From Alphaproteobacteria bacterium (GTDB lineage: Bacteria > Pseudomonadota > Alphaproteobacteria > Micavibrionales > Micavibrionaceae), in NCBI GenBank assembly GCA_016125135.1, contig WGMJ01000017.1, positions 62,001 through 126,000 on the forward strand: 64,000 nt of DNA, written 5' to 3'. Of this stretch, positions 3,579-30,258 are shown in pieces. Every line of letters starts with the position of its first letter. The stretch's first letter is position 1. Made by a program: the position numbers and the translations under genes. The notes below the pieces were generated by a model. It was given only the letters and a program-made list of their open reading frames with translations, was not told the DNA's origin and searched no databases.

Positions 3579-4538
3579 ATGGTCGATCTGCGGCGTGAAT
3601 TTTTGCAAAAAGCCGAAGCCCGCTTGCCTTTCGGCATGCGGCCCAGCCCCTTTACCGACCGCGGTGACTGGCTGGGGCAAAGCGAACTGGTGTTTGCACT
3701 CACAAATGGTTTCCCGACAACGCCTGGTCATACACTTGTTCTACCGGTTGATTTTTCGGTTTATCGCTTCCCCGAACTCGCACGAGACGAAATTGCCGAC
3801 CATCACCGCATGCTGAAATTCCTGAAGCCTGCTTTTATGAAGCACTTCCAGCCTGACGGGTTTAACGTGGGCTGGAATATGGATTTCTGTGGCGGGCAGT
3901 CAATCGCGCATGCGCATATGCATATTATGCCGCGCTATAACACCGTTAATTCACAACACGGTATAAACCCCAAAGGTGGCATTGCGCGCATGCCATTTGA
4001 AAGCCGTCCTACATATTACGATTCTAATGAGGGTCTGCCCGATGTCAGACAAATGAGAATTATTGCCGAGAATGAACATGCCGCCGCCGTTGCCTTGCCC
4101 GTTGAAAATGCAATGACGCAAGGCCACAGCCTCATTCTCCCCAAGGGCAACTACCGCAATGTTTTTACGTTGCCAACGGGCGCTTATACAGCCCAGCTTG
4201 ACCTCGCGCTCGACGTTATGAACCGGCAGCAAGACAGCGCTTCCCCGCCTGACGGGTATAATCTGGGTTGGGATGCCGGTAAGGCTGCGGGGCAGTTAAC
4301 ATCGCTGGCGTATCTGCATTTGGTGCCGCGTTATAATGGTGACATGGCAAGCCCGCGCGGTGGCATTATCCGCATCTTGCCGCAAGAAGCATGGCCGAAG
4401 GGCACTGACTATTATAATCAGGAGAATGCTGGCAAGGACATCCCGCTTACCGAGAGAATATCTTTCCCGTTCCATTTCTGGACGGACGTCAAGCGCACCA
4501 GTATACTTGATCTTAGGCGCCCGCCCGTGATGGCTTAA
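3579..4538 (+). CDS. Tandem HIT-domain protein with a degenerate second domain
   Basis: 319 residues containing two HIT folds in series; ordinary bacterial HIT proteins have one domain and are about 120-150 residues long. Domain 1 (about 25-120) has the full triad signature HAHMHIMPR with H111, H113 and H115. Domain 2 (about 160-255) is collinear (PGHTLVLP against QGHSLILP; GFNVGWN against GYNLGWD), but its triad region reads LAYLHLVPR, so only H247 is kept and two histidines have become Leu243 and Tyr245. Catalysis (nucleotidyl hydrolase or transferase) should therefore rest in domain 1. Substrate is unknown. The gene overlaps the convergent kinase gene by 4 bases. Confidence 0.85.
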   Translation: MVDLRREFLQKAEARLPFGMRPSPFTDRGDWLGQSELVFALTNGFPTTPGHTLVLPVDFSVYRFPELARDEIADHHRMLKFLKPAFMKHFQPDGFNVGWNMDFCGGQSIAHAHMHIMPRYNTVNSQHGINPKGGIARMPFESRPTYYDSNEGLPDVRQMRIIAENEHAAAVALPVENAMTQGHSLILPKGNYRNVFTLPTGAYTAQLDLALDVMNRQQDSASPPDGYNLGWDAGKAAGQLTSLAYLHLVPRYNGDMASPRGGIIRILPQEAWPKGTDYYNQENAGKDIPLTERISFPFHFWTDVKRTSILDLRRPPVMA

Positions 4539-16972: not shown

Positions 16973-19900
16973 ATGCCTAAGGATATCTGCACAGTAACTG
17001 AAAGCAACGCAGCGGTTAAGATCGAGTCATTCAAGACAAACGACATCCCTGCAACCTCAGCCGGCGTTCAAAGCTATAATGTTTTGCCAAGCGGCGCGCT
17101 CGAGATCCTGACTGTGTCGGGCGATAAAATCGTTATCGAGAATTTCGCGAAAATCGCAAAAGAAACAACGAAAGAAAATACAAAAGATACTTATCTGCAA
17201 TTCTCGGACGGTACTGTCGTTTCTGTCCGCGAGCTTGCCCAGAATCAGGCGCCAGAACTGTGCACAAGCCCTGACAAGAAAGCCACCGAAACAACTTTCA
17301 CAACAATCGAAGCGCCTGAAGCAAACGCTGTTGTAACAACATCGTTGCCTGCTGGCAGCCTTGCCCGTTTTGGCTTCAATTCAGATGAAATCCAGTCTGC
17401 CACACGTGTTGATGACGACCTTGTTATCACCTTCAAAAACGGTGGTTCTGTAACAATCGATAATTACTTCTCGACAGAAGCAGGCCTGCCTGCCGCACTC
17501 ACACTGGCCGATGGCACAGTGATTGATGTCAGCGAGCTTCTGGCTTCTTACAATCTTGATAAAATTCAATCAGCTGCCGGTGATGAAGAAAAAGAAGCCG
17601 CAGAAAAAGTTGCTAAAGTAGAACCAAAAGCAGGCGAGCCAACAGCCGAAGATCTCGCCAACATCGAGCCAGCCGCCGGTGTTGAAGGTGGTTCTGCCGG
17701 TCGCGGTTTTGGTTTCCAGTCAGTTTTCACGCCTGATGCACTGGGTGCTGTTCCTGCAATCGGCCCGATTGGCCCCACAGCTTTGCAATTTGGCCTGCCA
17801 GAAGTTGAAGAGCAGCCATTCCTGCTGAACGCAGCGCCTGCGGGCATTCCACCAGTCACGCCGCCAACATTGTTCATTCCACCATCAGCACAGTTCGAAG
17901 ATACAGCGCAACAACTGTTGATGAATGTAACAAATAACGGTGGTGCAAACTCGTTCCTGACAATCACAGTTTCCAATATTCCTGCTGGCTGGACAGTTAC
18001 AGGCGCAGGCTGGGTTAACACAGCCCCTGGCGCATGGACAGTCACACTGCCAAACGGTGTAAACTTTACAGGTGGCCCGATCCTTTTGCCACCACACGAC
18101 AGCGATATCGATATTCCGAATGTTGATGTAACTGTTACACAAACAGATTCAATTGGCGGCGGCTCAACGTCAACAACACAAACCGTCACAGTGACTGTGG
18201 ATGCTGTTGCTGATACACCACTTGTGAACGCAACAACTTCTGCAGTGCTTGAAAACAACCCTGCACCGCTGAACATTACAACATCTGTAACTGACGTTGA
18301 TGGTACAGAAGCGATTACACACCTGCTTATCAGTGGCGTGCCTGCCGGTTTCTCGCTGAATAACGGCGCTGTCGATATGGGCGGCGGTGTATGGCAACTC
18401 ACACCAGCGCAATTGCCTGGTCTGCAAGTAACAGCGCCAACAGGCTTCTACGGCAACGTAACAATTCTTGTTACAACTGTGAACTACGATACACCAACTG
18501 ATGGTGAACTGACGCTTGTAAACAACGAAAATCAGGCGTCACAGCCAGTAACACTGGTTTACCAGCCAGTGGTTATTGACCCGACTGTCGACGTTGCCGG
18601 TGCAACAGATACAGTGGTTGTAAAAGAAGATGGCACTGTTTTCATGCCGATCGTAGCGACAAACCCGAATGGTGTTGGCAGCGTTATGACAGTGATCATG
18701 ACAATTCCTGCTGCACCAGGCTGGACAATTGATACAACAGGCTGGACAGATATCGGTGGCGGCCAATACCAGATCGTGCTGAATGATGGCGCCGACTACA
18801 CAGGCGGCATTACGCTCACACCTCCTGCAAATTCCGACGTTGATTTCCCGGGCAATATCAGCGTCAGCGCAACGGTTGCTGACGGCATCCTTTCTGCAAC
18901 TGTGACTGACGCAGGCACAGTCATTGTTGATGCGGTTGCCGATACGCCGACAATCAATGCTGCTGATAATTCTGGCGTAGAAAACACAGCGCTTGCTGTA
19001 AACATCACAGCCGCCCTGACAGACCTTGATGGTTCTGAAACTATCGTGAAATATCAGATCAGCGGCGTACCTGCTGGTTTTGGCTTCTCGGCTGGTACAA
19101 ACCTTGGCGGCGGCGTATGGGAATTTACACCTGCGCAAATCGTTGGTCTGACAGCAACAGCGCCTGCAAACTATGTTGGTACAATCAACCTGACAGCAAC
19201 AGTTTTCAACAGTGAAACAACATTGTCAGGCGGTGAGACAGACCTTACTGACAACGACAGCAGCAATAGCGATCCATTAACGCTGACATGGACAGACACA
19301 CCGGTTCTGCCGCCAGTTGTTGATGTTGCCGGCGCAACAAACAGCGTTATTGTAAAAGAAGATAGCTCGATATTCATGCCAATCGTGTCTACAAACCCGA
19401 ATGGTGTTGGCAGCGTGATGGTTATCACAATGACAATTCCTGCTGCACCAGGCTGGACAATCAATACAGCTGGTTGGACATCAATTGGCGGCGGTCAATA
19501 CCAGATCACGCTGAATGATGGCGCTGATTACACAGGTGGTATTACGCTTACACCACCTGCGAACTCTGATGTGGATTTCCCGGGTAACGTCAGCGTATCT
19601 TCAACAGTTACATTGGCAGGTAATACAGCAACGGCATCTGATGCTGGTACAGTGATTGTGGATGCGGTTGCAGATCTTCCGACAATTAATGCGGCAGACA
19701 ATGCCGGCGCACAGAACACAGCGTTGGCTGTGAATGTTGCGGCGGCTGTAACAGATACAGATGGTTCAGAATCAATCGTGAAATACCAGATCAGCGGCGT
19801 GCCTGCTGGTTTTGGCTTCTCGGCTGGTACAAACCTTGGCGGCGGCGTATGGGAATTCACACCAGCGCAAATCGTTGGTCTGACAGCAACAGCCCCAGTG

Positions 19901-22900
19901 AATTTCATGGGTTCAATCACGTTGAACGCAACGGTATTCAATGCTGAGACAACAACATCAGGTGGCGAGCCTGATACAGCTGATAACACAAACCAGAATA
20001 GTGACCCGCTGACACTGACATGGGTTGGCACACCGGTTGTTGATGTTGCAGGTAACACAAATATTGTAACAACAAACGAAGATACATCGGTGTTCTTGCC
20101 GATCGTGGCAACAAACCCGAACGGTGCGGGCAGTGTTATGGTTGTGACCATGACAATTCCTGCTGCGCCAGGCTGGACAATCGATACAACAGGCTGGACC
20201 CCAATGGGTGGCGGCGTTTACCAAATGACACTGAACAATGGGGCTGATTACAATGGCGGCATCACATTAACACCACCAACCAACTCAGACGTTGACTTCC
20301 CTGGGGTTATCAATGTTCAGGCTTCTGTGACAGACCACGGTGTAACCGTAAACGCATCAGACAATGGCGATGTAATTGTTGATGCGGTTGCTGACCTTCC
20401 AACAATTACAGCGGATGGTTCCACAGGTCTTGAAAATACAGGCCGTCCAGTCACGATCAACGCGGCTGTTACAGATACAGACGGTTCTGAAACAATTACT
20501 CACTACCAGATTTCTGGTGTGCCTGCTGGCTTCGGCTTCAACCAAGGTACAAATCTGGGTGGGGGCGTATGGCAATTCACACCAGCGCAAATTGTTGGTC
20601 TACAAGCCACAGCACCAGCAAACTACGTTGGTACAATCAACCTGACAGCAACAGTGTTCAACAGCGAGACAAATACAAGCGATATCGAACCTGATCTGAC
20701 AGATAACAACAACCAGAACAGCGATCCGCTATCAATCACATGGACAGACACACCAGTTCTGCCGCCAGTTGTTGATGTGGCGGGCGGCACAAATACAGTG
20801 ATCGTAAAAGAAGATAATTCTATCTTCATGCCGATCGTTGCGACAAACCCGAACGGTGCTGGTAGCGTTATGGTTGTCACCATGACAATTCCAAGTGCGC
20901 CAGGCTGGACAATCAATACAGCAGGCTGGACATCAATTGGTGGTGGCCAGTACCAGCTAACATTGAATAACGGCGCTGATTACAATGGCGGCATTACACT
21001 CACACCGCCTGCAAACTCTGATGTTGATTTCCCTGGTAATGTTTCGGTTACAGCGGCTGTAACGCTTGCAGGCAACACAGTCAGTGCAACAGATGCTGGT
21101 ACAGTACTGGTAGATGCGGTTGCAGACTTTGTTACGCTGAACGCACCAGATGCAATCGGTGACAGAAATGACCCGATCCCAGTCACATTTACAGTGAACA
21201 AGGGCGACGCAACAGACGGCTCTGAAACAATTACAGGCTACCAGATCTCAGGTGTGCCTGCTGGCTTCAGCTTCTCTGCCGGTACAAATATGGGCGGCGG
21301 CGTATGGCAATTCACACCAGCACAAGCTGTTGGTCTGACAATGTCATCACCATTGAACTTCACCGGCTCAACCCCAACGATGACCATGACTGTCTACACA
21401 GCGGAAACAAATCTGGGTGGTTCTGAAGTAGATTTCACAGACAACACAAACCAGGCGTCAGATACATTCTGTGTAACATGGGATTTCACAGTTGGTACAC
21501 CAACTTTGAATGCGCCATCGGTTTCAGTGAAAGAAGATAACTCGGTCTTTATTCCAATTACAGCAACGCTCGGTGACCCGCTAGATAGCATGAAACTGAC
21601 AGTTTCAAACATTCCTGCTGGTTGGACAGTGACAGCACCGGGTTGGACAAACCTTGGTGGTGGTGTTTGGGAAATTCAACTGGCAACAGGTCAGAACTAT
21701 AATGGTGGCATTACAGTAGCGCCGCCAGCCAACTCTGATGCCGATATTCCGAATATGCAAGTTACTGCTGTTGAGAGCTTCGGTGGTGACAGTGCAACAA
21801 TCACAGTGCCTGTTTATGTTACAACAGATGCTGTTGCGGATATCGCAAATATCAATGCGGTTGATAATAGCGGTCAGGAAAATACACAACTTGCTGTTGG
21901 TATTACGGCGGGCGTGACGGATCTTGATGGTTCTGAAACAATCGTGAAGTACCAGATCACAGGCGTACCTGCTGGCTTCGGTTTTACAAGCGGTACAAAC
22001 ATTGGCGGCGGCGTATGGGAGTTTACACCGGCCCAGATCGTTGGTTTGAAGGCAACTGCGCCAACAAACTATGTTGGTACTATCAACCTGAATGCAGTTG
22101 TGTTCACGGCTGAAACAAATACAAGCGGTATCGAACTTGATACGTCGGATAACACACGCACAACGCTTGATCCGTTCTCGTTGACATGGACAAATATTCC
22201 GGTGAATCCACCTACTGTTGATGTTGCCGGCGGCACAAACACAGTAATCACAAACGAAGATACATCTGTGTTCATGCCAATCACAGCAAACAACCCGAAT
22301 GGTGCTGGTAGTGTTATGGTTGTGACCATGACAATTCCGAGCGCACCAGGCTGGACAATCAATACAGCGGGCTGGACATCCATCGGTGGTGGCCAGTACC
22401 AGATCACGCTGAACAACGGCGCTGATTACAATGGCGGTATTACACTAACGCCACCGGCCAACAGCGATGTTGATTTCCCTGGTAACATTTCTGTTACAGC
22501 TGCGGTTACACTGGCTGGCGATACAGTCAGCGCTACAGACGCTGGTACGGTGATTGTTGATGCGGTCGCCGATGTGCCGACGATAACAGCTGATGGTTCA
22601 ACAGGTCTGGAAAATACAAGCCGCCCTGTAACGATTAATGCCGCGCTAACGGATACAGATGGTTCTGAAACAATTGTGAAATACCAGATCAGCGGCGTAC
22701 CTGCTGGTTTCGGCTTCAACCAAGGTACAAATCTTGGTGGCGGCGTGTGGGAGTTCACACCGGCACAGATCGTAGGTTTGCAAGCAACATCACCAACAAA
22801 TTTTGTTGGCTCGATCAACCTTGTGGCAACAGTTTTCAACGCCGAGACGAATACAAGCGGCGTAGAGCCTGATCTGACAGACAATAACAACAGCAACAGC

Positions 22901-24340
22901 GATCCGCTGACAATCACCTGGACGGACACACCGATCAATCCTCCGGTTGTTGATGTTGCGGGCGGCACAAACACAGTAATCACAAACGAAGATACATCTG
23001 TGTTCTTGCCGATCGTGGCAACAAACCCGAATGGTGCTGGCAGCGTTATGGTTGTGACTATGACGATCCCGACAGCGGCGGGTTGGACAATCAATACAAG
23101 CGGTTGGACATCGCTCGGTGGCGGTCAATACCAGATCACGCTGAACAATGGCGCTGATTATAACGGTGGTATTACACTGTCACCGCCAGCACAAAGTGAC
23201 TACGACTTCCCGGGCAATATCTCGGTAACAGCGGCAGTGACACTGGCTGGTAATACAGTAACAGCAACAGATGCAGGTACAGTGATTGTTGATGCGGTTG
23301 CGGATAGCATGACAATTGATGCTGGTCCGAACCAGACATCAACGCTGAACACACAGATGACGATGAATATCAGCTTCGGCGCTTCTGTTGATACGGACGG
23401 CTCTGAATCACATGTCTTCCAAGTGCTTGGTGTACCAACAGGCTTCAGCTTCAACAAGGGTACAAACCTTGGTGGTGGTATCTGGCAGTTTACAGAGGCA
23501 CAACTCAGCAACCTGAAAATCAGCTCAACAACTGATTTCAAAGGCAATCTTGATCTGACCGTGCGTGTTATCAACACAGAAACAAACACCCATGGTGTCG
23601 AACCTGATCTGACAGATAACCAGTTCATCGCAAGTGACACTGTGCGTCTGACATGGGTTTGTAACGATACAATTCCTGTTGTTGCCAATAAAGAGCACAC
23701 GATTACAGAGATCAGTGGCGTGAGCGGTAACCTGAACGCACAATTCTTCTGTGAAGGTGCGGCAACGGGTGGCGGTTACAAAACAGGCAACACGTTCACC
23801 TATAGCGGCATCGACTGGGACTTCCTGACATCGTCTTGTCAGAAAATAACAGTGACAAGTGGATCGAACAGCTATGTTGGTATCCGTGCGGATGGCCAGA
23901 AAGTATTTGAACTTGTAATCAATGCGACAACAGGCGACTACACATTCACAATGTACAAGTCGCTTGACCACTATGATGTTGTTGCGCCTTACGGCGTGCC
24001 CGAGAACATTGTCCTGAACTTCGGCGGTTATGTTGAAGATCTGGACGGTGACCGTGCAAACTTCAATATCCGCATCAACGTAAAAGATGGTTCTGATATT
24101 GACTATCTGTACGGTGTTGGCCCCGCGTACACCCCGGCTTCTGCCCCATCAGCCATGATGGCGCCATCATCTGGTGATGTTGTGTATGGCAGCAACTCGG
24201 TTGACGATGCGATCGGAAACTTCGTATCCGGCGGTTCCAACTCTTCTAACATTGCCAGCGCTTCAGGCCCTGCCAATGATAATGGTTCGGGCGCTGAATA
24301 CGGCTTCGAGTTGAACCAGCAAAACACACAAATCCTTTAA
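16973..24340 (+). CDS. Giant repetitive surface adhesin, probable type I secretion substrate
   Basis: 2455 residues without an N-terminal signal peptide. Residues 1-200 hold two related segments of BapA-prefix type (DKIVIENFAK...FSDGTVVSVREL and GGSVTIDNYF...LADGTVIDVSELL). An acidic Ala/Pro linker (200-307) follows, with two AAG motifs (SAAG 200-203, PAAG 233-236). Residues 308-2237 are eight two-part Ig-like repeats of about 241 residues. The 218-residue C-terminal part ends in a Ser/Gly/Asn/Ala-rich, weakly charged tail (last residues NTQIL) suited to type I export. There are no RTX nonapeptides. TolC, ABC and HlyD genes follow. The product probably mediates attachment or biofilm formation, by analogy to LapA/BapA proteins. 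Confidence 0.8.
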   Translation: MPKDICTVTESNAAVKIESFKTNDIPATSAGVQSYNVLPSGALEILTVSGDKIVIENFAKIAKETTKENTKDTYLQFSDGTVVSVRELAQNQAPELCTSPDKKATETTFTTIEAPEANAVVTTSLPAGSLARFGFNSDEIQSATRVDDDLVITFKNGGSVTIDNYFSTEAGLPAALTLADGTVIDVSELLASYNLDKIQSAAGDEEKEAAEKVAKVEPKAGEPTAEDLANIEPAAGVEGGSAGRGFGFQSVFTPDALGAVPAIGPIGPTALQFGLPEVEEQPFLLNAAPAGIPPVTPPTLFIPPSAQFEDTAQQLLMNVTNNGGANSFLTITVSNIPAGWTVTGAGWVNTAPGAWTVTLPNGVNFTGGPILLPPHDSDIDIPNVDVTVTQTDSIGGGSTSTTQTVTVTVDAVADTPLVNATTSAVLENNPAPLNITTSVTDVDGTEAITHLLISGVPAGFSLNNGAVDMGGGVWQLTPAQLPGLQVTAPTGFYGNVTILVTTVNYDTPTDGELTLVNNENQASQPVTLVYQPVVIDPTVDVAGATDTVVVKEDGTVFMPIVATNPNGVGSVMTVIMTIPAAPGWTIDTTGWTDIGGGQYQIVLNDGADYTGGITLTPPANSDVDFPGNISVSATVADGILSATVTDAGTVIVDAVADTPTINAADNSGVENTALAVNITAALTDLDGSETIVKYQISGVPAGFGFSAGTNLGGGVWEFTPAQIVGLTATAPANYVGTINLTATVFNSETTLSGGETDLTDNDSSNSDPLTLTWTDTPVLPPVVDVAGATNSVIVKEDSSIFMPIVSTNPNGVGSVMVITMTIPAAPGWTINTAGWTSIGGGQYQITLNDGADYTGGITLTPPANSDVDFPGNVSVSSTVTLAGNTATASDAGTVIVDAVADLPTINAADNAGAQNTALAVNVAAAVTDTDGSESIVKYQISGVPAGFGFSAGTNLGGGVWEFTPAQIVGLTATAPVNFMGSITLNATVFNAETTTSGGEPDTADNTNQNSDPLTLTWVGTPVVDVAGNTNIVTTNEDTSVFLPIVATNPNGAGSVMVVTMTIPAAPGWTIDTTGWTPMGGGVYQMTLNNGADYNGGITLTPPTNSDVDFPGVINVQASVTDHGVTVNASDNGDVIVDAVADLPTITADGSTGLENTGRPVTINAAVTDTDGSETITHYQISGVPAGFGFNQGTNLGGGVWQFTPAQIVGLQATAPANYVGTINLTATVFNSETNTSDIEPDLTDNNNQNSDPLSITWTDTPVLPPVVDVAGGTNTVIVKEDNSIFMPIVATNPNGAGSVMVVTMTIPSAPGWTINTAGWTSIGGGQYQLTLNNGADYNGGITLTPPANSDVDFPGNVSVTAAVTLAGNTVSATDAGTVLVDAVADFVTLNAPDAIGDRNDPIPVTFTVNKGDATDGSETITGYQISGVPAGFSFSAGTNMGGGVWQFTPAQAVGLTMSSPLNFTGSTPTMTMTVYTAETNLGGSEVDFTDNTNQASDTFCVTWDFTVGTPTLNAPSVSVKEDNSVFIPITATLGDPLDSMKLTVSNIPAGWTVTAPGWTNLGGGVWEIQLATGQNYNGGITVAPPANSDADIPNMQVTAVESFGGDSATITVPVYVTTDAVADIANINAVDNSGQENTQLAVGITAGVTDLDGSETIVKYQITGVPAGFGFTSGTNIGGGVWEFTPAQIVGLKATAPTNYVGTINLNAVVFTAETNTSGIELDTSDNTRTTLDPFSLTWTNIPVNPPTVDVAGGTNTVITNEDTSVFMPITANNPNGAGSVMVVTMTIPSAPGWTINTAGWTSIGGGQYQITLNNGADYNGGITLTPPANSDVDFPGNISVTAAVTLAGDTVSATDAGTVIVDAVADVPTITADGSTGLENTSRPVTINAALTDTDGSETIVKYQISGVPAGFGFNQGTNLGGGVWEFTPAQIVGLQATSPTNFVGSINLVATVFNAETNTSGVEPDLTDNNNSNSDPLTITWTDTPINPPVVDVAGGTNTVITNEDTSVFLPIVATNPNGAGSVMVVTMTIPTAAGWTINTSGWTSLGGGQYQITLNNGADYNGGITLSPPAQSDYDFPGNISVTAAVTLAGNTVTATDAGTVIVDAVADSMTIDAGPNQTSTLNTQMTMNISFGASVDTDGSESHVFQVLGVPTGFSFNKGTNLGGGIWQFTEAQLSNLKISSTTDFKGNLDLTVRVINTETNTHGVEPDLTDNQFIASDTVRLTWVCNDTIPVVANKEHTITEISGVSGNLNAQFFCEGAATGGGYKTGNTFTYSGIDWDFLTSSCQKITVTSGSNSYVGIRADGQKVFELVINATTGDYTFTMYKSLDHYDVVAPYGVPENIVLNFGGYVEDLDGDRANFNIRINVKDGSDIDYLYGVGPAYTPASAPSAMMAPSSGDVVYGSNSVDDAIGNFVSGGSNSSNIASASGPANDNGSGAEYGFELNQQNTQIL
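17894..23683 (+). repeat. Eight tandem two-part repeats encoding adhesin domains
   Basis: Each unit is about 720-732 bases and encodes module A (DVAG...TVIVKED, then GGQYQITLNNGADYNGGITL and TVIVDAVAD) followed by module B (ENT, TDTDGSETI, YQISGVPAGFGF, GGGVWEFTPAQIVGL, DPLTLTWTDTP). Clear module A starts lie at 18590, 19322, 20042, 20774, 22220 and 22952. The first (17894) and sixth (about 21500) units are more divergent in module A. Some copies are nearly identical at the DNA level: 45 bases at 22229-22273 recur exactly at 22961-23005, which points to recent duplication or gene conversion. Confidence 0.9.
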
Positions 24341-24511: not shown

Positions 24512-26053
24512 ATGTCGACAAAAAATATGCTTCTTCTTGCCAGTGCAGCAATCGCACTTTCGCCTTTAGCGGCCTTCGCACAAGAAGAAATGCCACAGCC
24601 ACAAGCAGCACCTGTTGAATTACAGCAGGAAGCACCTGTCGCAGAGACAGTTGTTAATGAGCCGCCGCCAATGTTTGATGATGCAACCAATGTTGCACCA
24701 GCTGAAGCTGTGCCGCCTGCGCCCGTGATGGAACCAGCCATGGTTCAATCTACGCCCCCAGCGGTAGCCACCAGTTCAACAAAGGCGATTTCTAATTTAC
24801 AGCAGGCAATTGCAATTGGTGTTGTTTCGAACCCTGAATACAGCGCTGTTGCCAATAACCGCCGTGCCACAGACGAAGAATTGACACAAGCCAAAGCGCT
24901 TTACCTGCCTTCAATTGACTCTCGTCTTGATGGTGGTTGGGAGCGTTCCAACAACCCATCAACCCGTGGGGATCTTGATGGTAAGGACACTGAAACGCAC
25001 AGTAAGTATGACGGTAGCCTGACACTGACACAGATGCTTTTTGATGGTGGTGAAACACATTACGAGAACGAGCGTCAGCGCCACCGCGTTCGCTCGGCCG
25101 CGCACCGCGTTAAGGAAACAGCAGAATTTGTTGGTCTGGATATAACTGAGTCATATCTGGATGTTCTACGTCAGCGCGAACTTTTGAATATTGCCCGTGA
25201 AAACGTAGCCCAGCACGATGAAATATTGCGCATGATTACAGATGGTGCCGAGGCTGGTCGTTCAACCGATGCAGACGTTGAGCAAGCCCGCGCCCGTCTT
25301 GCTTCTGCCAACGCCTTGATTGCGAACAACGAAGAAAGCTTGCGTATTGCCGAGGCTGCTTACCGCCGTGAAGTGGGTGAGTTCCCTGGCGCGCTTGAAA
25401 AACCGCTAGCGCCAACAGGTACACTTTCATCAAATGTTGATGATCAGGTGAAAATGACACTGGCCCAATCGCCGACACTTGATATCCGCGAAGCAGATGT
25501 GAACGTGACGGAAGCTGAATGGAAAGCAACGCACTCGGCTTTCTATCCCCAAGTTGACCTGCAGGTGAATGGTCGTAAGGCGAATGACCTTGGCGGTGTT
25601 GAAGGTAACGACACAAGCACATCAGCCTTGATGGTGATGAACTGGAACCTCTACCGTGGTGGTGGTGATGTAGCCCGCACACGCGAGGCTGTTTACCGCC
25701 AGGCACAAGCCAAAGACGAGCGTAATAATACAGCCCGTCAGGTTGAAGACAATGTTCGCCAGACATGGGCCCGTATGATTTCTGCCGAAGAGCGCGCGAA
25801 ACAATTCGAACTGCAGGCTGAAGCTAATGCTGTTATTGTGAAGGCCTATCTTGACCAGTTCAACCTTGACCGCCGTACATTGCTTGATGTGCTTGATGCG
25901 CAAAACGAGTGGTTTGTATCACGCTCTAACGCTATTTCAAGCCGTTACCTGCAAACATTTGCTGTGTACCGCTTGCTGGCGCTAAAGGGTGGATTGCTGC
26001 CAAATTTCAGCGTCCCTTACCCGAGCGAAGTTGTGCTGAACGACAAAAAATAA
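24512..26053 (+). CDS. TolC-family outer membrane protein of type I secretion
   Basis: 513 residues. A signal peptide (LLLASAAIALSPLAAFAQ) is followed by about 85 residues rich in Pro, Ala, Glu and Val before the first TolC repeat (ISNLQQAIAIGVVSNPEY). The two OEP repeats are visible: LTLTQMLFDGG...ITESYLDVLRQRELLNIARENV...GRSTDADVEQARARLA, then LAQSPTLDIREADVNVTEAEWKATHSAFYPQVDL...LDQFNLDRRTLLDVLDAQNEWF. That is the layout of outer membrane channels paired with adhesin exporters (LapE/BapE-like). It forms the outer membrane conduit with the ABC and HlyD proteins encoded downstream. Confidence 0.9.
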   Translation: MSTKNMLLLASAAIALSPLAAFAQEEMPQPQAAPVELQQEAPVAETVVNEPPPMFDDATNVAPAEAVPPAPVMEPAMVQSTPPAVATSSTKAISNLQQAIAIGVVSNPEYSAVANNRRATDEELTQAKALYLPSIDSRLDGGWERSNNPSTRGDLDGKDTETHSKYDGSLTLTQMLFDGGETHYENERQRHRVRSAAHRVKETAEFVGLDITESYLDVLRQRELLNIARENVAQHDEILRMITDGAEAGRSTDADVEQARARLASANALIANNEESLRIAEAAYRREVGEFPGALEKPLAPTGTLSSNVDDQVKMTLAQSPTLDIREADVNVTEAEWKATHSAFYPQVDLQVNGRKANDLGGVEGNDTSTSALMVMNWNLYRGGGDVARTREAVYRQAQAKDERNNTARQVEDNVRQTWARMISAEERAKQFELQAEANAVIVKAYLDQFNLDRRTLLDVLDAQNEWFVSRSNAISSRYLQTFAVYRLLALKGGLLPNFSVPYPSEVVLNDKK

Positions 26054-26056
26054 TAT

Positions 26057-26400
26057 ATGCCGCGCACGCAATTATCGAGTATTCCTCGAACCTGTCATCA
26101 ATCATGACACAATACGATATTGTACAAAAAGTACATCAAGTGATGCTTGAATGTGGTCTCTTTACGCCGGCGGATATCAAAACAAGATCTTATGAAGCTG
26201 AAGATTTTTGTGTTGGGGCGAAGGGGCGCGATGGCAGTTTTATTCACGTATCTGTTTGGCTACTTGAGGGCCGAACAAACGAACAGAAGGGTGCCCTAAC
26301 GGGGGCCATTAAAGCTAACTTGTGCGGCGTTCTGAAGAACGTCGATCAGGTTTCAGTGGATATCCAAGACATGGTTCGGGATACTTATCGCAAATGCTGA
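26057..26400 (+). pseudogene. 5-carboxymethyl-2-hydroxymuconate isomerase-like gene with a 2-base frameshift at its start
   Basis: The 98-residue frame from ATG 26104 matches the inner and C-terminal part of CHMI/tautomerase-family proteins (GLFTPADIKTRSY, FIHVSVWLLEGRTNEQK, DMVRDTYRK). The same frame continues upstream without a start as HAIIEYSSNLSSI, the usual family N terminus after Met-Pro. An ATG-CCG pair (Met-Pro) is present at 26057 but two bases out of frame: removing one CG from the CGCGC at 26060-26065 restores MPHAIIEYS. The catalytic Pro1 is thus disconnected. It could be a young pseudogene, a sequencing error, or a shortened protein from ATG 26104. The gene lies between tolC and the ABC transporter gene. 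Confidence 0.7.
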
Positions 26401-26488: not shown

Positions 26489-28765
26489 TTGAATAATCCC
26501 GCCGCCGACCAGCCAGAGCCACAATTAAAAGCACATGAACAGCCAACAGATTCATGGCCGCTTGAGGCTGACCGCTTGGCAGTTCACTCCTCTCTTGTTG
26601 AATGTGTACGTTTGCTGGCGGGTCACTTTGGCCGCCGCACCAGCACGAATGCATTAACAGCAGGTTTGCCAATCCCCAAGAGTGGCATCACACCGTCACT
26701 TTTAATGCGCGCTGCCGAACGTGCTGACCTGACAGCCAAGATGGCGCATAAAGGGTTGGAAGCACTGGCGATTGCACCGAACTTCCCTTGCATCCTTGTG
26801 CTTGAACGCAAACAGGGGTGCATTCTATGGGATGTTGAATATCCTGATAACCAGCGGCCTGAAAAAGTACCTGGCAAGCCAGTGAAGTTGCATGCTGAAA
26901 CAAAATTCCTTGTGACATTCCCTGAAACAGAGGGCGAGAAAAGATGGCTAACACTTGGCGAATTAAAAGCCATGTATGCCGAATATGTTTTCTTCGTAAG
27001 GCCCGTTGCAAGGTCAGATGACCGCGCAGGTCCTGCGACAATTGATAATGCGCGCGACTGGTTCTGGGGTACTTTAAAAGAGAACTGGTCGATCTACCGC
27101 GAAGTAATCGTTGCGTCGGTCATGGTTAACTTTTTCGCACTGGGCGGCACGCTATTTGCCATGAATGTGTACGACCGCGTAGTGCCGAACCTCGCTTTCG
27201 AAACGCTCTGGGTTCTTGCAGCTGGCGTTACAATTGTTTATTTGTTTGATTTCATCCTTAAAAACCTGCGCGCCACATTCCTTGATGCTGCGGGTAAACG
27301 GGCTGATGTGAAAATATCGGCAAAACTTTTCGAGCAAATCCTTGGCATGAATTTGGCAGCAAGACCAGCAAGTGCGGGTGTACTTGCCAGCAACATGCGT
27401 GAATTTGAAACGATCCGTGATTTCTTTACATCTGCCACCATGGCCGCGCTCATCGATTTGCCGTTCGCGTTTCTGTTTATCATCATTATCGGCGTTATTG
27501 GCGGGCCACTGGCGTTTGTTGTTTTATTGGCTGTGCCATTGGTTATTCTGGGTGGCTGGGCGTTACAAAAGCCCATGGAAAAAGTAATTAAAGAGTCATT
27601 GCACGAAAACGCACTCAAAAACGCACTTCTTTTTGAAACCATTACAGGCCTTGAAACGATTAAAACCATGGCGGCTGAAGGTAATATGCAGCGCCAATGG
27701 GAAGAACTGAACGAGAAGGCTGCAAAAACCGGTGCGAAGGTTCGTCGCATTTCAACATTTGCTATCAACTATTCAGGCCTTATCCAGCAGGTGAATAGTG
27801 TTGTGATGATGATTGCCGGCGTTTATATGATTGCAAACGCGTGGCTGACAATGGGGGGATTGATTGGTTGCGTTATTCTCTCTGGCCGTGCGCTTGCGCC
27901 GCTCTCACAAATTGCAGCGATCATGATGCGCTTCAACCAGTCTGTGCAAGCACTCAAGCAGCTTGAAGAATTAATGAGAAAGCCTGTCGAGCGCCCTGCC
28001 GGTAAACACTTCATTTCACTGAACCGCGTCCAAGGCCGCATTGAGTTTCGTGATGTTGTTTTCAAATATCCGGGCCAGACAGTTCCCGCTGTTGACCATG
28101 TCACAATCTCGGTAGAGCCGGGTGAGCATATCGGGATTATCGGTGCGGTGGGCTCTGGTAAAACAACGCTTGAACGGCTTATTTTGAATTTGTACCAGCC
28201 CGATAGCGGCTCTATTATGCTGGACGGATCTGACGTGCGTCAGATCGACCCCGGTGATTTGCGCCGTAACATTGGTTCCGTACAACAGAATGCCCAGCTA
28301 TTTTATGGTTCGGTACGCGAGAACATCACCATGGGTCATGAAACGGCACCTGACCGCGCTGTTCTGCGTGCTGCCGAACTGGCAGGGGTGATGGAGTTTT
28401 TGAAGGACTCTCAAACCGGCCTGGATACGCAGGTGGGCGAGCGTGGTGAAGCGCTCTCGGGGGGACAAAGACAGGCGGTCGCCATTGCCCGTGCGCTTTT
28501 GTATGATCCACCAATTCTTATTCTAGACGAGCCCACGGCTTCGATGGACCCTGCATCAGAGAACCGTTTGCGCAAACGTTTGGCCGAATTGACCAAAGAT
28601 AAAACAACGCTTGTTATAACGCACAAAGGCTCGATGCTGAACCTTGTCAGCAAAATTATTCTGCTTGATCGGGGGCGTATTGTGGCGTTCGGTCCGAAGG
28701 ACGAAGTGATCCAGAAATTACAGTCGCGCCAGTTTGGTACAGCCGCAGAACAGAGTGATATATAA
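26489..28765 (+). CDS. Type I secretion ABC transporter (permease-ATPase), LapB-like
   Basis: 758 residues. Residues about 30-150 form a C39-peptidase-like domain without a catalytic Cys, as in LapB/HlyB-type exporters. Five or six membrane helices follow (VIVASVMVNFFALGGTLFAM through VVMMIAGVYMIANAWLTMGG). The nucleotide-binding domain has Walker A GAVGSGKTT (Lys558), the signature LSGGQRQ, Walker B ILILDEPT and the H-loop VITHKG. It powers adhesin export across the inner membrane. The start is TTG 26489 with only a weak AAAGAG before it; the next in-frame ATG would cut into the C39-like domain. Its stop overlaps the HlyD start (TAATG). Confidence 0.92.
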   Translation: MNNPAADQPEPQLKAHEQPTDSWPLEADRLAVHSSLVECVRLLAGHFGRRTSTNALTAGLPIPKSGITPSLLMRAAERADLTAKMAHKGLEALAIAPNFPCILVLERKQGCILWDVEYPDNQRPEKVPGKPVKLHAETKFLVTFPETEGEKRWLTLGELKAMYAEYVFFVRPVARSDDRAGPATIDNARDWFWGTLKENWSIYREVIVASVMVNFFALGGTLFAMNVYDRVVPNLAFETLWVLAAGVTIVYLFDFILKNLRATFLDAAGKRADVKISAKLFEQILGMNLAARPASAGVLASNMREFETIRDFFTSATMAALIDLPFAFLFIIIIGVIGGPLAFVVLLAVPLVILGGWALQKPMEKVIKESLHENALKNALLFETITGLETIKTMAAEGNMQRQWEELNEKAAKTGAKVRRISTFAINYSGLIQQVNSVVMMIAGVYMIANAWLTMGGLIGCVILSGRALAPLSQIAAIMMRFNQSVQALKQLEELMRKPVERPAGKHFISLNRVQGRIEFRDVVFKYPGQTVPAVDHVTISVEPGEHIGIIGAVGSGKTTLERLILNLYQPDSGSIMLDGSDVRQIDPGDLRRNIGSVQQNAQLFYGSVRENITMGHETAPDRAVLRAAELAGVMEFLKDSQTGLDTQVGERGEALSGGQRQAVAIARALLYDPPILILDEPTASMDPASENRLRKRLAELTKDKTTLVITHKGSMLNLVSKIILLDRGRIVAFGPKDEVIQKLQSRQFGTAAEQSDI

Positions 28766-30258
28766 TGAACCAGCAAGTACCCAAGGAAATCCAGCAAGCA
28801 ATGCAATCAGCGCTTCAGCAGGCGCAACAGCAAAGCCAAGGCCAGCAGCAGGGGCAGCAAGAAGCAACTTTTCAAATGTCTGGCAACCTGAACATCAATA
28901 AGGCTGAAGACTGGCAGAAGATACGCGGGGCATGGGTTGATAACCAGCTCGAGAAACTGCAAGCACATGCAGAGCGCTTTTTTGTCACGGATGACGAGAT
29001 CCCGCTCTCACGCCATATTCTCCTGAGCATGATTACGTTGTTCTTTGTTATTTTTATTGTCTGGGCCAGTTTTGCAAAGATTGATGAAACAACGCACGGT
29101 GAAGGCAAGGTTATTCCATCCAGCGAAATCCAGATCATCCAGAACCTTGAGGGTGGCATTGTAAACAAGCTACTGGTGCGCGAAGGCGATGCCGTAAAAG
29201 CAGGGCAGGTTATTGTCCAGCTGCGTGATGTGGGTGCAGCCTCTGATTTCGGGGCGAATAGCGCAAAATATCTTGGCCTTTTGGCAACCATTACACGCTT
29301 GCAGGCTGAAGCCGAGGGTAAAAGCACAATCGAGTTTCCTGAGGAGGTTGTTACGGGTGTGCCACAAAGCGTTACTGAAGAGTTGAACGCGTTCAAGGCT
29401 AATCAGGATAAAATTTACAGCCAGACGAATGTATTGCGGCAACAGCGAGACCAGCGTGCGCAGGAAGTACGCGAACTTGAAACGCGCGCGCGTGACTTAC
29501 GCGGCGTCATTGCACTATCTGTACAAGAAAAAAGCATGATCGAGCCGTTGGTTGCCCGCGGGTCAGCGCCGAAGCTGGAATTGCTCCAACTCGAGCGCGG
29601 TATCAAGGAGCGCCAGACAGAACTAAACGGTGTTTTGCAGGGTTTACCGCGTGCACAATCAGCTGTTAGCGAGGTGGATGCCCGTATTGGCGAAATTGAG
29701 TCAACGGCTAAAGCGCAGGCGCAAACTGAGCTTTCTGCAAAGCTGGTTGAAATGAACACAATCAAGCAAACACTTGGCGCGTTGCAAGACCGTAAAGACC
29801 GGACGGATGTCAAATCGCCTGTGAACGGAACGGTGAAAGATTTGAAGGTCAACACGGTTGGCGGTGTTGTGCGTCCAGGTGACCCGATTGCCGAGATCGT
29901 GCCAATGGATGACCAGTTGTTGGTGGAAGCCAAAATCCGCCCAGCCGATATTGCGTTTATTCACCCCGACCAGAATGCGATGGTGAAACTCACGGCATAT
30001 GATTTCTCGATCTATGGTGGTCTCAAAGGGCACGTGATCGATATCTCCGCCGATACTATTACAAACGAGAAGGGGGAGAGTTTTTACCGCGTAAAAGTAC
30101 GTACCGAGAAAAGCATATTGGAGCGCAAAGGCGAGGTGCTACCCATTATCCCCGGTATGGTGGCGACGGTTGATATTCTAACTGGTAAAAAGACCATCAT
30201 GCAGTATCTGATGAAGCCCTTTATCAAGACCTTGGGCCGCGCCATGAGCGAGCGCTGA
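28765..30258 (+). CDS. HlyD-family membrane fusion protein of type I secretion
   Basis: 497 residues. An unusually Gln-rich cytoplasmic N terminus (about 50 residues) precedes one membrane helix (ILLSMITLFFVIFIVWASF). The lipoyl halves are EGKVIPSSEIQIIQNLEGGIV (start of domain) and VKSPVNGTVKDLKVNTVGGVV, with long periplasmic coiled coils between them. The C-terminal beta-barrel part contains VKLTAYDFSIYGGLKGHV. It bridges the ABC transporter and the TolC-like channel. One-base overlap with the ABC gene shows translational coupling. Confidence 0.93.
   Translation: MNQQVPKEIQQAMQSALQQAQQQSQGQQQGQQEATFQMSGNLNINKAEDWQKIRGAWVDNQLEKLQAHAERFFVTDDEIPLSRHILLSMITLFFVIFIVWASFAKIDETTHGEGKVIPSSEIQIIQNLEGGIVNKLLVREGDAVKAGQVIVQLRDVGAASDFGANSAKYLGLLATITRLQAEAEGKSTIEFPEEVVTGVPQSVTEELNAFKANQDKIYSQTNVLRQQRDQRAQEVRELETRARDLRGVIALSVQEKSMIEPLVARGSAPKLELLQLERGIKERQTELNGVLQGLPRAQSAVSEVDARIGEIESTAKAQAQTELSAKLVEMNTIKQTLGALQDRKDRTDVKSPVNGTVKDLKVNTVGGVVRPGDPIAEIVPMDDQLLVEAKIRPADIAFIHPDQNAMVKLTAYDFSIYGGLKGHVIDISADTITNEKGESFYRVKVRTEKSILERKGEVLPIIPGMVATVDILTGKKTIMQYLMKPFIKTLGRAMSER

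Follow-up and report, generated by a model that had tools for sequence, protein, structure and literature searches.

What is left of a tautomerase gene when the codons for its initiating methionine and its catalytic proline stand in one reading frame and the rest of the protein in another? Such a gene lies inside a type I secretion operon in the window, that is, the whole stretch of 64,000 nucleotides of an alphaproteobacterial genome (family Micavibrionaceae) that was analysed here. Is this a mutation, an error in the sequence, a switch, or the source of a shortened protein with some other use? At a probability of roughly 0.6, the locus is read here as a horizontally gained gene of the CHMI family that has very recently become an ordinary pseudogene.

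The break behind the start codon

The window reads ...AAATAATAT ATG CCG CGC ACG CAA..., with the ATG at 26057-26059; directly 3' of the tolC gene the letters are TAA TAT ATG CCG CGC ACG CAA. All features of the window described here lie on the forward strand. The old Met-Pro start is now out of frame: it opens a frame of 16 codons (26057-26107) that reads MPRTQLSSIPRTCHQS and closes at the TGA at 26105-26107, as expected from the first-pass annotation, which had placed ATGCCG out of frame with HAIIEYS. The frame of 26056 reads YAAHAIIEYSSNL... and is stop-free until the TGA at 26398-26400. Its remaining CHMI-family part, from HAIIEYS to RKC and the TGA (26065-26400), has every invariant residue, so that the rest of the frame is indeed intact, as had been claimed. 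Could the ATGCC be there by chance? With about six offsets at 4^-5 each, an out-of-frame ATGCC so near the homologous stretch would be expected in less than 1% of cases, and is thus unlikely to be a coincidence.

The comparison with orthologues tells how such a gene should begin. A scan of genome contigs with the single protein gave no close relative; these were found by a profile scan only. The closest loci belong to Alphaproteobacteria: L002, from another family of the order (genome G039), at 51%; L050 and L051, at 51-53%; and L052, at 37%, the last three drawn from a sample of the class. L002 starts ATG CCC CAC GCC ATT ATC GAA TAC, and L050 and L051 start ATG CCC CAC/CAT GCC GTT ATC GAA. 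All four have ATG CCC CAY in a single frame, with a clear Shine-Dalgarno sequence upstream. Among the 53 named CHMI loci of the profile scan, 51 have Met-Pro-His in one frame and two have Met-Ala-His; the latter (L117 and L127) carry alanine in place of Pro1 and are otherwise normal members of the family. A shorter natural start at ATG 26104, which would have spoken against the break, was looked for, and no relative starts there.

Since ATG-CC(N)-CAY stands in a single frame in all compared orthologues, the comparison upholds the proposed two-base insertion: judged by this alignment, two bases too many lie between the start and codon 3 of the window copy. They are held in the CGCGC tract at 26061-26065, within which their exact place cannot be told. 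Because these bases follow the second codon, a full protein with the catalytic first proline can no longer be made. Another start with proline in frame 26056 was considered and rejected: the first ATG, GTG or TTG of this frame is at 26104, no codon upstream of HAIIEYS gives Met-Pro, and no proline codon adjoins any possible start there, so that Pro1 cannot be recovered in this way.

Family, fold and neighbourhood

The assignment to a CHMI-like family, made in the first pass from the letters, agrees with the profile search: the product of frame 26056 matches Pfam CHMI (PF02962) at 1e-15, scoring 58.7 bits where the cut-off is 26.5, and the whole genome has no second PF02962 match. The AlphaFold model of the frame read from 26056 (pLDDT 85.3) has the two beta-alpha-beta units of about 115 residues that characterize CHMI (E3-10 H22-32 E41-48 / E62-70 H75-92 E98-106). 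The columns invariant across eleven homologues (H4, I6, E8, Y9, H27, K42, T43, R44, H64, G72 and R73) are all kept. Thus the gene shares its full frame, its invariant residues and its fold with the CHMI family of the tautomerase superfamily; unlike the family, it has its Met-Pro1 out of frame and is placed inside a secretion operon. As Pro1 does not directly follow the start methionine, the locus is, on its sequence, a broken member of the family and not a working one.

It is also unlike the true CHM Delta-isomerase (HpaF). Against that equivalog (NCBIfam PRK15031) it scores 21.6 bits, far under the cut-off of 215, and the genome has no match over cut-off for HpaE, the pathway partner of the true isomerase; therefore the known homoprotocatechuate route offers no reason to retain a CHMI gene. 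Matches to CHMI occur in 18 of 58 relatives, the window's own genome counted, and at 1e-8 in 21 of 142 order-level genomes.

The surroundings are those of protein export. The tolC-type outer membrane channel gene (24512-26053) ends 3 bases upstream of ATG 26057; beyond the CHMI frame follow an LssB-type ABC transporter gene of type I secretion (26489-28765), which adjoins tolC in relatives, and, in the same operon, an HlyD-family adaptor gene (28765-30258). Upstream lies a large repetitive adhesin (16973-24340), the likely cargo, which thereby adjoins its likely type I exporter; it is 2455 residues long, with a BapA-prefix-like start and T1SS-143-type repeats, both matches falling just under or below the family cut-offs.

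None of the 18 family relatives that have tolC and lssB on one locus carries a CHMI gene between them, and the nearest orthologues are in other families; for these reasons the gene appears to be a lone arrival, through transfer or rearrangement. It has no Shine-Dalgarno sequence of its own. The calculated energy is -0.7 kcal/mol at ATG 26057 and -0.1 at 26104, compared with a median of -3.45 over 144 ATG genes of the contig and with -5.9 to -7.9 in L002, L051 and L052; the site at ATG 26057 is weaker than that of 77% of the contig's ATG genes, and weaker also than the median random position. Translation of the gene would then depend on coupling to tolC.

How could this arrangement have come about? 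The lineage would have gained a CHMI-family tautomerase gene by transfer, and the gene would have come to lie with tolC on one side and the ABC-transporter gene on the other, starting 3 bases after the stop of tolC and lacking a Shine-Dalgarno sequence of its own. A later insertion of two bases, a duplicated CG or GC right after the Pro1 codon, would have inactivated it; this is the probable order of events. Ribosomes starting at ATG 26057 would now make a 16-residue peptide, and at most some of them would re-initiate at the overlapping ATG 26104 to give a fragment of 98 residues that lacks Pro1 and strand 1. Such a fragment should be inactive as a tautomerase, to judge by the model.

Mutation, error or remaining use

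Three explanations had been put forward at the outset, and two of them still stand: a very young pseudogene and an error in the sequence. The CHMI frame scores -4.02 in codon usage; the contig's long genes have a mean of -3.95 (SD 0.05), and the other five frames give -4.13 to -4.34. The usage of the CHMI frame is thus near-native, and it has no second lesion. Since the invariant residues and the codon usage are intact, the break is either very recent or an error. Might the living genome keep an intact Met-Pro-His gene, the two bases being an artefact of sequencing or assembly? This is a possibility of some weight, though a doubtful one. It would fit a single lesion in a gene otherwise so well preserved, and one such error in 2.2 Mb of sequence in 23 contigs would be unremarkable; decay has left no further mark on the CHMI frame, which is the weak point of the pseudogene reading. 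However, the CGCGC tract is no homopolymer, and the gene also lacks a Shine-Dalgarno sequence, as expected for a gene losing its use. A further argument against an error comes from the rest of the 184-kb contig. A codon-usage HMM could not separate frame breaks from ordinary gene overlaps, and a homology test was used instead, in which the contig was matched against ORFs taken from 1.2 Mb of G021, a relative in one contig. The test covered 84.7 kb of homologous coding sequence and gave no true frame break elsewhere; the three raw signals, two antisense shadow ORFs in the ribosomal-protein/fusA operon and one ORF of 85 residues, were dismissed. The test detected 29 of 40 simulated two-base insertions (about 73%), and by the rule of three such breaks occur, at the 95% level, no more often than about once in 20 kb. 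This leans towards a real mutation, with ample room left for a single error. A pseudogene is the most likely reading and a base error comes second, and we infer that the break is present in the living genome.

The third of the original explanations, a reversible slip at the CG repeat, has no support. The lesion does lie within a two-unit CG repeat just after the start, where programmed or reversible slipping might turn the enzyme on and off, but this is scarcely credible: two and a half repeat units fall far short of a contingency locus, which has a long repeat tract where this gene has only CGCGC, and no orthologue has a comparable tract. A programmed frameshift was rejected too, as there is no slippery heptamer, and from the letters the CCG and CGC tRNAs would re-pair poorly one base back.

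Another question is whether the gene could work without Pro1, through re-initiation at 26104 or a rare start in frame 26056, in a use other than tautomerisation. A product of 98 residues could still be made from the open frame at 26104-26400, and the first in-frame ATG of the CHMI frame shares bases with the stop that closes the broken leader, as ATGA (26104-26107), a usual form for re-initiation, which is what might happen here. The rest of the CHMI frame is intact, and the two relatives with Met-Ala-His also do without the proline. Moreover, 346 sequences of the tautomerase superfamily without Pro-1 have been reported, with another residue after the initiating methionine and a good alignment with the superfamily (PMC5818174). 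Like these, the window gene encodes a protein without Pro1; however, they keep their start codon, and the start of the window gene was lost through a frame break. A product from 26104 would also lack strand 1 (model residues 3-10) with the conserved H4, E8 and Y9, while the Met-Ala-His relatives retain this strand, and there is no Shine-Dalgarno sequence at 26104. A working product of this kind is therefore quite improbable, and it is hardly to be expected that a re-initiated, N-terminally cut fold has been co-opted into the type I secretion operon. Were the fragment produced and put to use, the result would be a tautomerase fold that lacks the residue by which it is defined. Under the preferred reading of a recent pseudogene, or that of a base error, the locus as it stands would be one more single lesion, useful only as an annotation warning: automatic annotation will list a 98-residue 'CHMI' from ATG 26104, which cannot carry the catalytic proline.

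Broken and riboswitch-associated relatives

Two other CHMI genes among the 53 named loci are frame-broken, and each is split across two frames in mid-gene: one in Rhodopseudomonas sp. AAP120 (L116, about 3869-4190) and one in Tardiphaga robiniae Vaf-07 (L128, about 3815-4170). Like the window gene they have one frame break in a CHMI-like gene that is otherwise intact; unlike it, they are broken in the middle and have their own Met-Pro-His intact. Their presence indicates that it is not unusual for such genes to be lost, and that the genes are dispensable.

Several relatives in the family have a CHMI-like gene of another subfamily, roughly 22-37% identical to that of the window, right after a TPP riboswitch. 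The window's genome has no such gene of the thiC-operon type, no TPP riboswitch and, in a search run without a positive control, no thiC match, all of which its relatives have; thiamin pyrimidine synthesis has likely been lost in it. The idea that the window gene is a copy of a thiC-operon CHMI in the same genome was rejected, none being present there.

In the relatives, the riboswitch (RF00059) precedes the CHMI-like gene at eight loci (L003, L007, L012, L015, L016, L017, L020 and L022), and a thiC-like gene lies downstream in all five loci read (L041, L042, L044, L045 and L046); at four of these Pfam confirms it as ThiC. A literature search found no report of the riboswitch - tautomerase - thiC unit. 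The unit spans 5352-7592 in L044 and 5182-7357 in L045, and its composition suggests a thiamin-related role for this tautomerase.
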